Shown one piece after another: positions 12,923 to 20,931 of a DNA stretch of 64,000 bases; positions within the stretch are counted from its first letter, which is position 1, and every line of letters starts with the position of its first letter. Location of the stretch: the NCBI RefSeq assembly GCF_017312365.1, contig NZ_BLJI01000012.1, forward strand, positions 62,001-126,000. The letters run 5' to 3'. Under the pieces are notes generated by a model. The model had not been told where the DNA came from, searched no databases, and saw nothing but the letters and a program-made list of their open reading frames with translations. The stretch is from Chroococcus sp. FPU101. Lineage in GTDB: Bacteria > Cyanobacteriota > Cyanobacteriia > Cyanobacteriales > Microcystaceae. A program made the position numbers and the translations under genes.

Positions 12923-13270
12923 ATGGCTCGATATCTCTGCTCTTACCTAGCAAAAGCTCCTCTAGAAGAACTAAAACCCGCCTTGAGTGAAGTCTTAAAA
13001 TTTTGTAATTTTGATATTATCTATCATACAATTGATTATATAATGGCGCGAGAAACTCCAGGTAGGATTTTATTTTCCAAATTAGTAACGGTAGAAGTTT
13101 TAATCGATAGTACAACCGCTACAAATCAAGGAATTCAAGTTAACTTAGTTGTTAAAAATGATGAACTTCCCTTACAAAGTAATAATCATTGCCGTCAGCT
13201 TTTTGAGCGGTTGCAAGACACCCTATCACAAGATCACCAGTGGAAATTAGTGGCTAATGCTCCAACTTAG
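12923..13270 (+). CDS. Conserved hypothetical cyanobacterial protein
   Basis: 115 residues, no signal peptide or membrane helix. Begins MARYLCSYLAKAPLEELKPALSEVL and contains an alternating strand/helix pattern (VTVEVLIDSTT, IQVNLVVKNDELP) compatible with a small alpha/beta fold. I do not recognise the family. It is divergent from holB, with 57 nt between its start and the holB start chosen here, and its end is close to the end of the convergent broken dioxygenase gene. Confidence 0.6.
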   Translation: MARYLCSYLAKAPLEELKPALSEVLKFCNFDIIYHTIDYIMARETPGRILFSKLVTVEVLIDSTTATNQGIQVNLVVKNDELPLQSNNHCRQLFERLQDTLSQDHQWKLVANAPT

Positions 13271-13759
13271 GCTAAATCAGCTTTGATGTGAGTCTAAATG
13301 TGGCGTAACTTTTTTAACCTCAGATTGTCCCAGTATAATATCAAACTGACCGACCCGTCTGCTATCTTTCGGGTCTGTTTTTAGTTTAGTGGTTACTAAA
13401 GACCGTTGCTCAATCGGAATACGTTGTAGAATGCGATCGCCTTGATTAAGTTCTTGTTCTTCCTCAAAATAGAGTTGTGTGATTAGGGGAGGAAGACTTG
13501 GTGCAATGACTTTAAAGTGAATATGCGGGGGTCTTTGCCAGTCACGAGTTACAGGATAGCCCCCTGGTTTAACGGTTGTGAACGCATATTGACCATTTTG
13601 CTGAGTCATCGCATAACCCCAGTACTGAAAATTTGGATCGACTGGTGCAGAGTTGCCGTCATACTCGTGTCGATATCTTCCTGATGCACACGCTTGCCAT
13701 ATTTCAACTCTAGCATTTGTAATCGGCTGACAATCGGGTGTCAATATACGGCCAATAAT

Positions 13760-13907
13760 GCGGATTTTTTCACCCAATGCGTCTCCTTGGTGTCCTGTAA
13801 CATATGTTAGATCTGTATCTTGGTCAATAGGAAATTCTAGCGGATAAAAAGGGCCTTCTGTTTGGGGTGGTGTGATGAAACAGTGATGACTCGACTGTAA
13901 AAAACGA
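13760..13907. repeat. 148-bp direct tandem repeat, copy 1
   Basis: Identical by eye to the adjacent copy at 13908-14055. The junction shares a single G, so the ends could shift by one base. 148 is not a multiple of three, which is why the dioxygenase frame breaks. Confidence 0.93.
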
Positions 13908-14055
13908 GCGGATTTTTTCACCCAATGCGTCTCCTTGGTGTCCTGTAACATATGTTAGATCTGTATCTTGGTCAATAGGAAATTCTAGCGGATAAAAAGG
14001 GCCTTCTGTTTGGGGTGGTGTGATGAAACAGTGATGACTCGACTGTAAAAAACGA
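13908..14055. repeat. 148-bp direct tandem repeat, copy 2
   Basis: Second, directly abutting copy, with no substitution seen relative to copy 1. This implies a very recent duplication or an assembly artefact. Confidence 0.93.
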
Positions 14056-14114
14056 GTAGTCATCAGTCCTATTCCTAACGTTCCAGTCTTATTAAGAAAA
14101 TTCCTTCTGTGCAT

Positions 14115-14424
14115 TGTGACTGTTTTTTAATCTTTCTTTTTTGAGCTTATACGTCGAAAATCAAGTATAACATTGCTATTTATTGTACTTCTGAATAACA
14201 AATCGCATTTTTTTTGAGTTCAGTCAAAGCAATTCAGTTAAAAAATTTTAGTTTTTCTATGTCAAGCCCATCAGAATGATATTTCGTGAAAAACATTATT
14301 TAAATTGAGCTTTTCTAAATAGAATAAAAGAGAAATAAGTAGAAATAAATAGATATTAAATTAAACTTTTATATGCTCGTTTTCTTAACTTTTTGCTGTT
14401 ACTATAAAAAATAAATTCAGATTA
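14115..14424. other. Intergenic AT-rich region without recognised features
   Basis: About 310 nt, strongly AT-rich, between divergent genes (broken dioxygenase on minus, secreted protein on plus). It must hold both promoters, but no convincing motif could be singled out and no gene was seen. Confidence 0.5.
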
Positions 14425-14454
14425 ATGAATTTGTTTTGTCATCAGGAGACTATT

Positions 14455-14826
14455 ATGAACGTTCGCTTTCAGCCTTTATTCGTTCCGAGCCTTTTAGTAA
14501 TTTTGAGTGCTGCTAGTTTTATTCCTTCACTCAAGGCGCAAGATTTAACCAATATTAAACCAACATCTCAAGACACAGAGATGTCCCAAACTACGGATAA
14601 ACCTCCAATGGAAACAGAAGTTACTCCTTCTACTACAGAAACTCAGCCTTCACCAAACAGTAACACTACTACCAATTGTCAAGGGAAAACCCCTTCAATC
14701 GGACAGCCTGGTGCTTCTAATCCGACTAACTTAATGAATTCAACCGAGATGAAAAACCCTATGGAAAGAGGTACTAACCAACTTAAACCCGTTACACAAC
14801 CTCAACCGATTTCCCCAACCCGATAA
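14455..14826 (+). CDS. Small secreted low-complexity protein
   Basis: The frame extends upstream to an ATG at 14425, but the ATG at 14455 has AGGAG six bases before it and begins a clear signal peptide, MNVRFQPLFVPSLLVILSAA through SLKAQ, so I choose 14455 (123 residues). The mature part is rich in Thr, Pro, Ser, Gln and Asn with no hydrophobic core, so it is probably unstructured. I do not recognise a family. A perfect 10-bp hairpin follows the stop, and the next gene also encodes a secreted protein. Confidence 0.65.
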   Translation: MNVRFQPLFVPSLLVILSAASFIPSLKAQDLTNIKPTSQDTEMSQTTDKPPMETEVTPSTTETQPSPNSNTTTNCQGKTPSIGQPGASNPTNLMNSTEMKNPMERGTNQLKPVTQPQPISPTR

Positions 14827-14833
14827 GATTTTT

Positions 14834-14865
14834 GTAGCAGGAACTTAGGTACCGATTCCTGCTAC
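14834..14865 (+). terminator. Perfect 10-bp hairpin between two secreted-protein genes
   Basis: GTAGCAGGAA (14834-14843) pairs with TTCCTGCTAC (14856-14865) around a 12-nt loop. There is no T-run, so it may protect the transcript end or attenuate rather than act as a classic terminator. Confidence 0.5.
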
Positions 14866-14903
14866 TGTAGATCTAGAATATCCAGTTTTTTCCCGAATAA
14901 AGT

Positions 14904-15620
14904 GTGAAAAAAAATCTAATTCGTCAATCCTTAGCACTCGTCCCAACAATTGGTCTTTTTCTGAATCTAACGATGATGAATCCCGTACTCGCTCAAGAAA
15001 AAGTATTACAAACTCTGACGGTTACAGGGCAAGGAGTCGAAAGAATTCCAACGTCCCTAACTCAAGTACAACTCGGTGTAGAAGTTCAAGGAAAAACAGC
15101 AACAGAAGTACAGCAGCAAGTCGCAAAGCAAACATCAGCCGTTGTGGATTTTTTGCGTTCTCGAAATGTCGAACGGTTACAAACGACAGGTATCGGGTTA
15201 CAACCAAATTATGATTTTAGCAATAATCAAAGACGATTAATCGGTTATATTGGCACAAATACAGTTAGTTTTCGTCTCAAAACGGAACAAATAGGAACTT
15301 TATTAGATGAAGCAGTGCAAAAGGGAGCGACTCGTATTGATGGGGTCAGTTTTACAGCAACGGATGATGCGATCGCAGTAGCTCAAAAAGAAGCCCTCAA
15401 AAGAGCAACCCAAGACGCACAACAACAATCAGACGCAGTTTTAAGAGCCTTGAATTTAACAGCTAAAGATGTAGTCAGCATACAAATTAATGGCGCAAAT
15501 CCTCCCCAACCTAAATTTTATAGCGAGCAACTGTCTAGAGCATCGGCTGATGTTAGTACTCCTGTTGTTGGTGGAGAACAGACTGTACAAGCATCGGTAA
15601 CGTTGCAAATTAGCTATTAG
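14904..15620 (+). CDS. SIMPL-domain (DUF541) periplasmic protein
   Basis: 238 residues, starting at GTG (MKKNLIRQSLALVPTIGLFL) with a signal peptide ending near VLAQ (residue 31). The remainder is a SIMPL/DUF541 domain: LTVTGQGVERIPTSLTQVQLGV opening strand, YIGTNTVSFRLKT, the GVSFTATDD segment and a final VQASVTLQISY strand. Bacterial members (such as E. coli YggE) are periplasmic and linked to oxidative-stress tolerance; the mechanism is unknown. Convergent with the next minus-strand gene, with a hairpin (15622-15660) between the stops. Confidence 0.88.
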   Translation: MKKNLIRQSLALVPTIGLFLNLTMMNPVLAQEKVLQTLTVTGQGVERIPTSLTQVQLGVEVQGKTATEVQQQVAKQTSAVVDFLRSRNVERLQTTGIGLQPNYDFSNNQRRLIGYIGTNTVSFRLKTEQIGTLLDEAVQKGATRIDGVSFTATDDAIAVAQKEALKRATQDAQQQSDAVLRALNLTAKDVVSIQINGANPPQPKFYSEQLSRASADVSTPVVGGEQTVQASVTLQISY

Positions 15621-15621
15621 A

Positions 15622-15660
15622 TCAATGTACATTAAATCATTATGAAATGATTCACATTGA
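15622..15660. terminator. Bidirectional terminator-like hairpin between convergent genes
   Basis: Outer arms TCAATGT (15622-15628) and ACATTGA (15654-15660), inner arms AATCATT (15635-15641) and AATGATT (15646-15652), loop ATGA. It sits exactly between the stops of the SIMPL gene and the convergent gene at 15682. Confidence 0.55.
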
Positions 15661-15681
15661 CCTAATAACTCTTGTTATAAA

Positions 15682-16716
15682 TTAACGTTGTACTAAAACT
15701 AAAGTTTCCTCGTTAGTTTGAGTCCCTTTAGTCGCATTTAGACTAATCTCATAGCGCGTACCAGGTAGGATATTTGATGGTTTAAAGCTAAAGCTAAAAT
15801 TCCCTTGACCATCTGCTTGAACAGTTTTAGAAAAGACATTGCGATTGACACCCACTACACCTACTAAGTTATTTTGTGCAGTGACGTTAATTGTAACTGT
15901 TGAATTTGGCGCACTTTTTCCGACAACTTCTACTGTGCCATTAATTTCACTATTATTGTTCGGGCTGACGATCTCTAATGGTAATTCTGTACTACTAGAA
16001 CTAGAACTATTGCTGGCGACTAAATCGCGATCCAAACGGGCCCGTACTGTACGTTCACCCTTTTCTAAACTAGCTGTCACTTGCACACCCGAACTAGGGA
16101 AAGCATCTTGACGACGAATTACATAACGTCCCTCATAGCGTCCTTCGGATACCTCGCGCATGGGTTGGTCGTAGGTGACACCATCAATTGAATAGGTAGC
16201 GTTTGCTTTAGGAGTACCATCGAGCATAAAAACTAACTCAGTCCCAGGCTCAAAATTATCTACGGTTTTTGCAGTAAATTGCTCAATTGATAAAGCTCTA
16301 TTGGTCGAGTCTTGAGTATTTTCCCTAGCGATTAAAGGTTCTTGTAGTCTTGCAGTTGCCCCGCGATTTCCTTGTTGTAGATTAGCTTGAATTGCTGTTT
16401 GATCAGTGATACGGTCTTGACTACGAATGGTGTAGCGTGCCTCATAATATCCCGATCGTACCTCACGCATGGGAATATTACTAGCAACTGTGCCAATACT
16501 CATGGTTACTTTAGATTTAGGGGTGCCTTCTAAGCTAAACACCAATTCACGCCCAGGAGATAAATCATCGACAGATTCGACGCTAAAACTAGAAATTTGT
16601 GGAGCAGATGTAGTCTGTGCAATGGTGTAAGATGGGTTGGCTACTGCCCTATTCGGTACGCCACCTAACACGGGAAAAACAGATAGAGCTAGAGTTGCTA
16701 ATAAGAATTTATTCAT
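15682..16716 (-). CDS. Secreted repeat protein with Ig-like C-terminus, unknown function
   Basis: The frame opens at a TTG (16731), but the ATG at 16716 has GGAG nine bases upstream and starts a good signal peptide (MNKFLLATLALSVFPVLGG), so I choose 16716 (344 residues). Two related repeats of about 95 residues follow, each with SPGRELVF/EPGTELVF, LEGTPK/LDGTPK, PMREV and a Y-(E)-(A/G)-RY-(T/V)-IR strand. The last 95 residues (PLEIVSPNNNSEINGTVEV...) look like a bacterial Ig-like domain. Probably periplasmic or surface-exposed. The family is not recognised beyond this architecture. Confidence 0.78.
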   Translation of the reverse strand: MNKFLLATLALSVFPVLGGVPNRAVANPSYTIAQTTSAPQISSFSVESVDDLSPGRELVFSLEGTPKSKVTMSIGTVASNIPMREVRSGYYEARYTIRSQDRITDQTAIQANLQQGNRGATARLQEPLIARENTQDSTNRALSIEQFTAKTVDNFEPGTELVFMLDGTPKANATYSIDGVTYDQPMREVSEGRYEGRYVIRRQDAFPSSGVQVTASLEKGERTVRARLDRDLVASNSSSSSSTELPLEIVSPNNNSEINGTVEVVGKSAPNSTVTINVTAQNNLVGVVGVNRNVFSKTVQADGQGNFSFSFKPSNILPGTRYEISLNATKGTQTNEETLVLVQR

Positions 16717-16858
16717 CTTAAAAATCTCCAATTTTGGCTTTTATAATTTCTTTTTGCTTCTTACCATCTAAATTAAAAGCCTTATGTTTTGTCCTCTGTC
16801 AGATGTGATAAAAGCGACTCTCCCCAGAGAAAGAGCCATCACTATTAAATTTATTACT

Positions 16859-17565
16859 CTATAATTCTGATAAATCAATTCCCATGTCTTGTAGCTTTTG
16901 AGCGAGTTTTTGCGATCGTGCTTTTTCTGATGCTAACTCAGATTCGGCTTTCTGAGCAGCTTCTTCTGGTGTAGGAATTAACTGTCCTTGTGCTGTAAAT
17001 AAGCGCAGTTTTCGCTCTTGAATGCCTAAATATAATTCTAATTGCTGACTCCATAACCAGCCATTAGGATTAGGTTGTAGGGGCTGATATTGACCATCTA
17101 GTAGATGAAATCCCTGAAATTCAAGATTTTCAGGATCAAACCAAAAATAATCAGGAGTGCGAAAGGTATCTTGATAGATTTGTTTTTTTAATCCTCTATC
17201 GGTTTTAGCGGTTTTAGATGACAGAATTTCCACAATAACATTAGGATATTTTCCATCTTCTTCCCAAATCACCCAACTTTTACGAGGTTTGCGTTCAGTC
17301 CCCAAAACAACGAAAAAATCTGGCCCGCGAAACTGCTCAGATTTGCGTTGAGGAGGGCTATAGTAAATAGTCAGATTACCGCAAGCATAGAAATCTTGGC
17401 GATCTTCCAAATTCTTTCTAAGCATTGCAGCACTAACATAATTTGCCGTAGATGTAGTTCGGTTTCCAAGGGCGGTTCATCGCTCAATAAGTCGCCAGGT
17501 GGAAAAATTACATCTTCTAGGATGCTTTTCGGTTCTAGATCTTGAGTCAAAGACATCGGCATCAC
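16859..17565 (-). pseudogene. Uma2-type PD-(D/E)XK endonuclease family gene, frameshifted
   Basis: The N-terminus (from 17565) reads PPGDLLSDEPPLETELHLRQ and IMLVLQCLE, the usual Uma2/DUF820 start, then runs off-family. The continuing homology (DRQDFYACGNLTIYY, RGPDFFVVLG, VIVEILSSKT with the presumed catalytic D, E and K) is in another frame. Total length is 707 nt; one added base near 17415 restores a 235-residue reading frame. The tail is a charged helical segment (EEAAQKAESELASEKA) frequent in cyanobacterial members. Uma2 proteins are abundant in cyanobacteria and have no settled role. Either a pseudogene or a one-base sequence error. Confidence 0.85.
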
Positions 17566-17621
17566 AGAAAAAAGGATTAAACTAATACTAGCGTACTCTT
17601 ATTGATTTAAAACCGACCTAA

Positions 17622-19118: not shown

Positions 19119-19922
19119 GTGAAAACAGACGCAATTTTTTATCAACTTTTTCAAGAATTTCCCCAGATATTTTTTGAAATTATCAATCAACCAAACATTC
19201 CATCCCACATCTATCAGTTTATTGCACCCGAAGTCAAACAACGTTCTTTTCGACTTGATGGGATTTTCTCACCCCCTGAAGATGCAAGTCAATATCCGCT
19301 TTATTTTGTCGAAGTTCAGTTTTATCGAGAAGAAGATTTTTATGATCGCCTATTTTCTAGTATTTTTCTTTATTTTGGTCAATATCGCCCGACTAACCCC
19401 GAATGGTTAGCAATTGTAATTTTTGACTTAACCAGTAATGATGTCGAAATACCATCCCGCTATCAAGCTTTAGTATCTCGTCATCTACAAATCATATATC
19501 TTGACCAAGTGGGAGCGATTGAAGAGATATCATTAGGATTAGCCATTGTCAAGTTAATTGTACAATCACCGATTGTGGCAAGTCAAACCGCGCCAAACCT
19601 CTTAGAGCGTGTTAATACAGAGATAACCGATCTTCCGCTTTCTAGACAGATTATCGATGTTATCGAAACCATTATCGTTTACAAATTTCCTCAATTGAGT
19701 AGTCAGGAGATAGCAGAAATGTTGAATTTAGAAGGGATAAAACAAACTCGCTTTTATCAAGAAACTTTTGAAGAGGGTAAAGAAGAGGGTCGAGAAGAAG
19801 GTCGCTTGGAAAAGCAGATCGAAATGATTCCTTTGTTACATGAATTGGGGTTAAACGCTGAACAAATTGCCGAGCGCTTAAAATTAGACCTAAATCTAGT
19901 TAGACAACACTTACAACCGTAA
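19119..19922 (+). CDS. DUF2887 (Rpn/PD-(D/E)XK nuclease-like) protein, copy A
   Basis: 267 residues, starting at GTG (MKTDAIFYQLFQEFP). The N-terminal 150 residues match DUF2887, a cyanobacterial family in the Rpn/putative-transposase nuclease group; FRLDGIF and FVEVQFYREEDFYDRLFS carry the D and E-x-Q positions of the PD-(D/E)XK core. A charged linker (EEGKEEGREEGRLEKQIE) and a helical HTH-like tail (LGLNAEQIAERLKLDLNLVRQHLQP) follow. Function is unproven; relatives promote recombination. A near-identical second copy lies directly downstream. Confidence 0.85.
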   Translation: MKTDAIFYQLFQEFPQIFFEIINQPNIPSHIYQFIAPEVKQRSFRLDGIFSPPEDASQYPLYFVEVQFYREEDFYDRLFSSIFLYFGQYRPTNPEWLAIVIFDLTSNDVEIPSRYQALVSRHLQIIYLDQVGAIEEISLGLAIVKLIVQSPIVASQTAPNLLERVNTEITDLPLSRQIIDVIETIIVYKFPQLSSQEIAEMLNLEGIKQTRFYQETFEEGKEEGREEGRLEKQIEMIPLLHELGLNAEQIAERLKLDLNLVRQHLQP

Positions 19923-19956
19923 TTTAATTCAAAAGTAATTTTAATATTATAGCTAT

Positions 19957-20931
19957 ATGTTGAGATTAGAAGGACTCAAACAAACTCGCTTTTATCAGGA
20001 AACTTTTGAAGAGGGTCGAGAAGAGGGTCGAGAAGAAGGTCGTCTAGAACACAAGATAGAAATGATTCCCTTATTACATGAATTGGGTTTAAGTGCTGAA
20101 CAAATTGCCGATCGCTTAAAATTAGATATTAATTTAGTAAAACAAATCCGCGTGAAAACAGACGCAATTTTTTATCAACTTTTTCAAGAATTTCCCCAGA
20201 TATTTTTTGAAATTATCAATCAACCGAATATACCATCTGAGATTTATCAATTTATTGCCCCAGAAATTAAACAACGTTCTTTTCGACTTGATGGGATTTT
20301 CTCACCCCCTGAAGATGCCAGTCAATATCCGCTTTATTTTGTCGAAGTTCAGTTTTATCGAGAAGAAGATTTTTATGATCGCCTATTTTCTAGTATTTTT
20401 CTTTATTTTGGTCAATATCGCCCGACTAACCCCGAATGGTTAGCAATTGTAATTTTTGACTTAACCAGTAATGATGTCGAAATACCATCCCGCTATCAAG
20501 CTTTAGTATCTCGTCATCTACAAATCATATATCTTGACCAAGTGGGAGCGATTGAAGAGATATCATTAGGATTAGCCATTGTCAAGTTAATTGTACAATC
20601 ACCGATTGTGGCAAGTCAAACCGCGCCAAACCTCTTAGAGCGTGTTAATACAGAGATAACCGATCTTCCGCTTTCTAGACAGATTATCGATGTTATCGAA
20701 ACCATCATCGTTTACAAATTTCCCCAATTGAGTCGTCAAGAGGTAGCAGCAATGTTGAAATTAGATGATCTTAAACAAACTCGCTTTTATCAGGAAACTT
20801 TTGAAGAAGGCAAGCTAGAACAAAAATTGGAAATGATTCCCTTGTTACATGAATTGGGGTTAAACGCTGAACAAATTGCCGATCGCTTAAAACTAGATAT
20901 TAATCTAGTTAGACAACACTTACAACCGTAA
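19957..20931 (+). CDS. DUF2887 protein, copy B, fused in frame behind the tail of another copy
   Basis: 324 residues. Residues 1-64 (MLRLEGLKQTRFYQETFEEG... to INLVKQI) are the C-terminal tail of a DUF2887 protein. Residue 66 (Val, GTG at 20152) onward is a complete second DUF2887 domain starting VKTDAIFYQLFQEFP. The core from about 20270 to 20735 is nearly identical at DNA level to copy A (offset 1044 nt in the aligned core, 1033 nt between the GTG starts through to start-proximal bases), while the linker and tail differ more. The GTG at 20152 may still be used as a separate start. The arrangement implies tandem duplication with partial loss of an intermediate copy, or unequal crossing-over. 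Confidence 0.8.
   Translation: MLRLEGLKQTRFYQETFEEGREEGREEGRLEHKIEMIPLLHELGLSAEQIADRLKLDINLVKQIRVKTDAIFYQLFQEFPQIFFEIINQPNIPSEIYQFIAPEIKQRSFRLDGIFSPPEDASQYPLYFVEVQFYREEDFYDRLFSSIFLYFGQYRPTNPEWLAIVIFDLTSNDVEIPSRYQALVSRHLQIIYLDQVGAIEEISLGLAIVKLIVQSPIVASQTAPNLLERVNTEITDLPLSRQIIDVIETIIVYKFPQLSRQEVAAMLKLDDLKQTRFYQETFEEGKLEQKLEMIPLLHELGLNAEQIADRLKLDINLVRQHLQP

Follow-up and report, generated by a model that had tools for sequence, protein, structure and literature searches.

A perfect 148-bp tandem duplication in an intradiol dioxygenase gene of Chroococcus sp. FPU101, best read as a recent one-off lesion

Introduction

Is a short perfect tandem duplication lying within a bacterial gene a reversible switch, an ordinary lesion, or the product of a draft assembly? 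This question is raised by an intradiol dioxygenase gene of Chroococcus sp. FPU101, located in a stretch of 64,000 nucleotides of contig NZ_BLJI01000012.1 (hereafter the window). A first-pass annotation had proposed that a duplication of 148 bp inactivates a Tat-exported enzyme at this locus and that the gene could be turned on and off by loss of one copy. The features concerned, given in window positions, are the following:

13277–14114, minus strand: intradiol dioxygenase gene, disrupted; 229 aa with one copy left out; orthologues known
13760–13907, minus strand: downstream tandem copy (relative to transcription); 148 bp, 100% identical to 13908–14055
13908–14055, minus strand: upstream tandem copy (relative to transcription); 148 bp, the G at 14056 extending the repeat by one base
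13824–14114, minus strand: ORF-A, 96 aa; RRNFL N-terminal signal, in frame for about 69 residues, thereafter out of frame up to a stop; iron ligands absent
13277–13951, minus strand: ORF-B, 224 aa; complete Dioxygenase_C domain but no signal; starts in the shifted frame at an ATG within the upstream copy

Geometry of the duplication

The two units abut at a spacing of 148 bp with 100% identity (window 13760–14055), an exact match far beyond chance. The match runs over 149 bases, a G being present at both 13908 and 14056. The bases flanking the copies differ (C versus T after them, T versus A before them) and, because only this G is common, the microhomology at the breakpoint amounts to 1 bp, which fits a random join and illegitimate recombination alike. 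Since 148 mod 3 equals 1, the minus-strand gene at 13277–14114 is frameshifted. Hence, the abutting perfect duplication, the single G at its junction and the frameshift described in the first-pass annotation were all borne out, in coordinates and in identity. When one copy was removed in silico, a 229-aa open frame with zero internal stops was obtained, carrying RYRH at 97, GGYPV at 135 and HIH at 148, in line with the claim that deletion of one copy leaves an intact protein with its iron ligands.

Identity of the enzyme

ORF-B matched PF00775 over residues 32–207 with an E-value of 2.3e-31 and a score of 109.1 bits, above the curated cut-off of 27.3, and could be aligned to the protocatechuate 3,4-dioxygenase beta chain 2pcd_M. 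In this alignment, Y93, Y132, H143 and H145 of ORF-B occupy the RYRH, PYP and HIH motif positions of 2pcd_M. In 2pcd, the Tyr, Tyr, His and His at these positions are the established iron ligands. The first-pass recognition of an intradiol dioxygenase with four iron ligands is supported. Against TIGR02422 (protocatechuate 3,4-dioxygenase beta subunit), ORF-B scored 147.5 bits, below the equivalog cut-off of 296.4, and it likewise stays well under the cut-offs of the equivalog models for particular protocatechuate and catechol dioxygenases. The disrupted gene is the only PF00775 gene of the genome (1 in all), which leaves no separate alpha subunit. The gene thus resembles the protocatechuate 3,4-dioxygenase beta chain (2pcd) and other PF00775 intradiol dioxygenases in its domain and its Tyr/Tyr/His/His ligand positions, but differs from that beta chain by reaching half of the beta-subunit equivalog cut-off, by having an RR-type N-terminal signal and no second PF00775 gene beside it, and by being interrupted.

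No match to Pfam or NCBIfam was given by ORF-A, whose start, MHRRNFLNK, is of the twin-arginine type. In its N-terminal sequence, MHRRNFLNKTGTLGIGLMTTR, RRxFL is present and the hydrophobic stretch is short and weak, so that Tat export is putative.

Effect on the product

The frame of ORF-A is lost after about residue 69, ahead of all the iron ligands. As assembled, the gene is therefore predicted to be unable to yield the exported enzyme without a correction of the frame. Missed at first reading was the fact that the two-copy allele keeps the 224-aa ORF-B, spanning the whole catalytic domain with all four ligands. Ahead of its ATG (13951), no Shine-Dalgarno-like sequence was recognizable, and nothing of note was seen in the RNA structure around this internal start. 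The exported enzyme has likely been lost, and any leftover cytoplasmic enzyme would be weak at best, because the start of ORF-B has no recognizable ribosome site. Loss of dioxygenase activity is likely as well, a step beyond what the sequence itself displays. Consequently, the word "inactivates" can be kept for the exported enzyme, which is probably lost, but is too strong for the locus as a whole, where a leaderless catalytic ORF survives.

The survival of this ORF raises the alternative that the duplication is real and relocates the enzyme, ORF-B being translated from the ATG at 13951 into an active cytoplasmic dioxygenase that replaces the exported one. The whole domain and the four ligands are indeed retained in ORF-B, and the segment missing from it is the signal region. 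However, its ATG has no Shine-Dalgarno-like sequence, promoter-like matches in the region do not exceed those in shuffled sequences, and ribosomes translating ORF-A would cross the ATG of ORF-B out of its frame, terminating about 128 nt past it. Such a relocation is improbable. A toggle of location, in which one-copy cells would export the dioxygenase and two-copy cells would make a leaderless cytoplasmic form from the internal start framed by the duplication, is barely credible.

Two further candidate elements were considered. Removal of one base from the A6 run near the junction (13918) would restore the frame, the resulting protein repeating about 49 residues internally; rescue of the frame by slippage at this run was rejected, six bases being short and nothing speaking in its support. 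The new junction (13924–13905) also contains a terminator-like hairpin, likewise set aside as being within shuffle expectation (0.8 expected).

Orthologues and distribution

Nine orthologues from the same cyanobacterial family were aligned, 53–61% identical to ORF-B. All nine are single-copy, intact and open (209–228 aa), and the RR pair near the N-terminus is found in 9/9; the single-copy arrangement is therefore ancestral. Apart from the duplication, residues conserved across the alignment are retained in the disrupted gene, and no other lesion is seen in it. A match was obtained in 11 of the 50 genomes of the family at the threshold used, Chroococcus sp. FPU101 included, and at E <= 1e-30 the gene occurs in 12/389 genomes of the order. 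The one congener compared, a sister species (G001), has no such dioxygenase gene. At the corresponding site of its genome, the Uma2-like gene comes directly after the gene at 12923–13270, and some 3.6 kb comprising the dioxygenase gene, the SIMPL-domain gene and the gene at 15682–16731 are absent. This sparse distribution, together with the absence of the block from the congener, indicates that the gene is accessory and that its loss would be tolerated; judged from these comparisons, it is dispensable. Single-copy alleles were also sought in plasmid records, with no match, and in genome contigs, with one distant Bdellovibrionales match alone.

A switch or a one-way lesion

Tandem duplications can be lost precisely, and in the present case losing one copy restores the frame exactly. 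A reversible phase switch under selection would work by adding or dropping the 148-bp copy, the exported enzyme being turned off or on accordingly. Direct repeats favour precise deletions in bacteria, as illustrated by mycobacteria, in which 38-bp direct repeats raised such deletions about 1000-fold over background (PMC3519483), and a large tandem duplication of Synechocystis vanishes under some growth conditions (PMC10068330). A switch takes more than reversion, since the duplicated state must also recur. Yet none of the orthologues (0/9) has another copy or any remnant of it, and the breakpoints have no microhomology of the sort needed for recurrence from the single-copy state. The two-copy state would therefore be regained far more rarely than lost, making the change essentially one-way. 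Phase-variable (contingency) loci are recognized by copy-number variation or conservation of the repeat among relatives; here, 9/9 orthologues are single-copy. A literature search on bacterial intragenic tandem duplications acting as phase switches returned nothing useful. Hence, the reversible on/off switch suggested in the first-pass annotation is very improbable: nine single-copy orthologues, the lack of a conserved repeat and the 1-bp microhomology argue against it, and general reversibility alone speaks in its favour.

The best reading is instead an ordinary recent one-off lesion bearing no mark of an evolved switch, and we give about an even chance to a recent loss-of-function tandem duplication of this kind. 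According to this scenario, the intradiol dioxygenase gene of this strain, single-copy and non-essential, would have been hit by an unselected 148-bp tandem duplication, formed with almost no microhomology, probably when replication switched template or when ends were misaligned during repair. That the event is recent follows from the lack of differences between the copies and of any further lesion in the gene. Past about residue 69, short of all the iron ligands, the Tat-type precursor would be out of frame, and no exported enzyme would be made. The downstream catalytic ORF, lacking the signal and any evident ribosome site, would give little cytoplasmic enzyme at most. Slippage or recombination between the copies could revert the allele, as for any tandem duplication. 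Ku-dependent end joining was ruled out as the cause, no Ku gene having been found in the genome.

Real duplication or assembly artefact

The locus could also, as the first-pass annotation allowed, owe its structure to the assembly, a contig-end overlap or a gap closing having joined sequences without merging 148 bp; the true locus would then hold one copy and an intact 229-aa gene. Such an artefact is a serious possibility, if somewhat short of an even one. The copies are exactly identical, their arbitrary breakpoints have 1 bp in common, as an untrimmed contig join would give, one copy restores an unbroken gene whose remainder is free of decay, and the genome is a draft of 104 contigs. Moreover, a second frameshift, due to decay or to a base error, lies 3.4 kb away in the Uma2-like gene. 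On the other hand, when the strain's own genome (G000) was surveyed for repeats over 852,897 bases sampled by stretches, the 148-bp pair was the sole abutting perfect repeat with a unit >22 bp. The sampled bases contain no N runs, and no 40-mers are shared between the sampled contig ends, as assembler overlaps would leave. With no other such repeat in 853 kb and zero N runs, unmerged joins are not widespread in the assembly, which argues against systematic join errors. Besides, the assembly of tandem repeats also errs by collapse, the subject of PMC6868369.

Similar repeats occur in single-contig genomes of the family, which again weighs against an artefact. Four near-complete genomes of the family, compared over 800 kb, hold one perfect repeat of similar size, in G006 (unit of 139 bp, 158 matching bases; L105 3138–3434, a single-contig genome), apparently intergenic and mostly outside ORFs of >=60 aa. 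A real event is therefore plausible here. Real duplications of such size arise at a similar rate, as far as counts of one versus one, which are non-decisive, can tell. All readings taken together, we lean towards a real duplication, present in the cells.

Comparison with known duplications

The nearest described reversible class is that of the microhomology-mediated tandem duplications of fission yeast (PMC13207564). The present case resembles it by a short perfect tandem copy within coding sequence, a shifted frame and a possible precise loss, but only 1 bp is common at the breakpoint, too little for a microhomology-mediated duplication, and the one assembly gives no sign that the duplication recurs, reverts or is selected. 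In a cyanobacterium, substrain GT-W of Synechocystis PCC 6803 carries a tandem duplication of 110 kb and 100 genes between identical transposases, which was lost in long autotrophic culture (PMC10068330). Both are cyanobacterial tandem duplications, the GT-W one being unstable; there, 110 kb are involved and loss was seen in culture, whereas here 148 bp within a gene are known from an assembly alone. The 148-bp case works like any intragenic tandem duplication.

If real, it adds one more fresh, potentially reversible, gene-breaking tandem duplication in a bacterial accessory gene. Should it be an artefact, the lesson is that an intact gene can seem broken in a draft assembly. In both cases, it brings little new to biology.

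Other observations in the region and genome

The interval 13270–16860 of the window (about 3.6 kb) holds the dioxygenase gene, a 133-aa ORF, the SIMPL-domain gene and the gene of an exported-looking 349-aa protein. The SIMPL homologue of G001 lies on another contig, and the block is either an insertion here or a loss in G001. The Uma2-like gene (16859–17425, minus strand) encodes 188 aa here versus 234 aa in G001: within 16859–17600, a 1-base deletion near 17400 relative to G001 cuts off the N-terminal part, which is still readable in another frame. Either genuine decay or an erroneous base could account for this frameshift. Elsewhere in the genome, contig 18 starts within a period-303 repeat (L036 1–460, 161-bp exact match), a tandem array at which the assembly seems to break. 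Finally, two tandem near-identical genes of 267 and 324 aa occur at 19119–20931 of the window, with 386 bp of perfect identity and a period of 1033 bp, a pair that reflects a recent tandem gene duplication or gene conversion.
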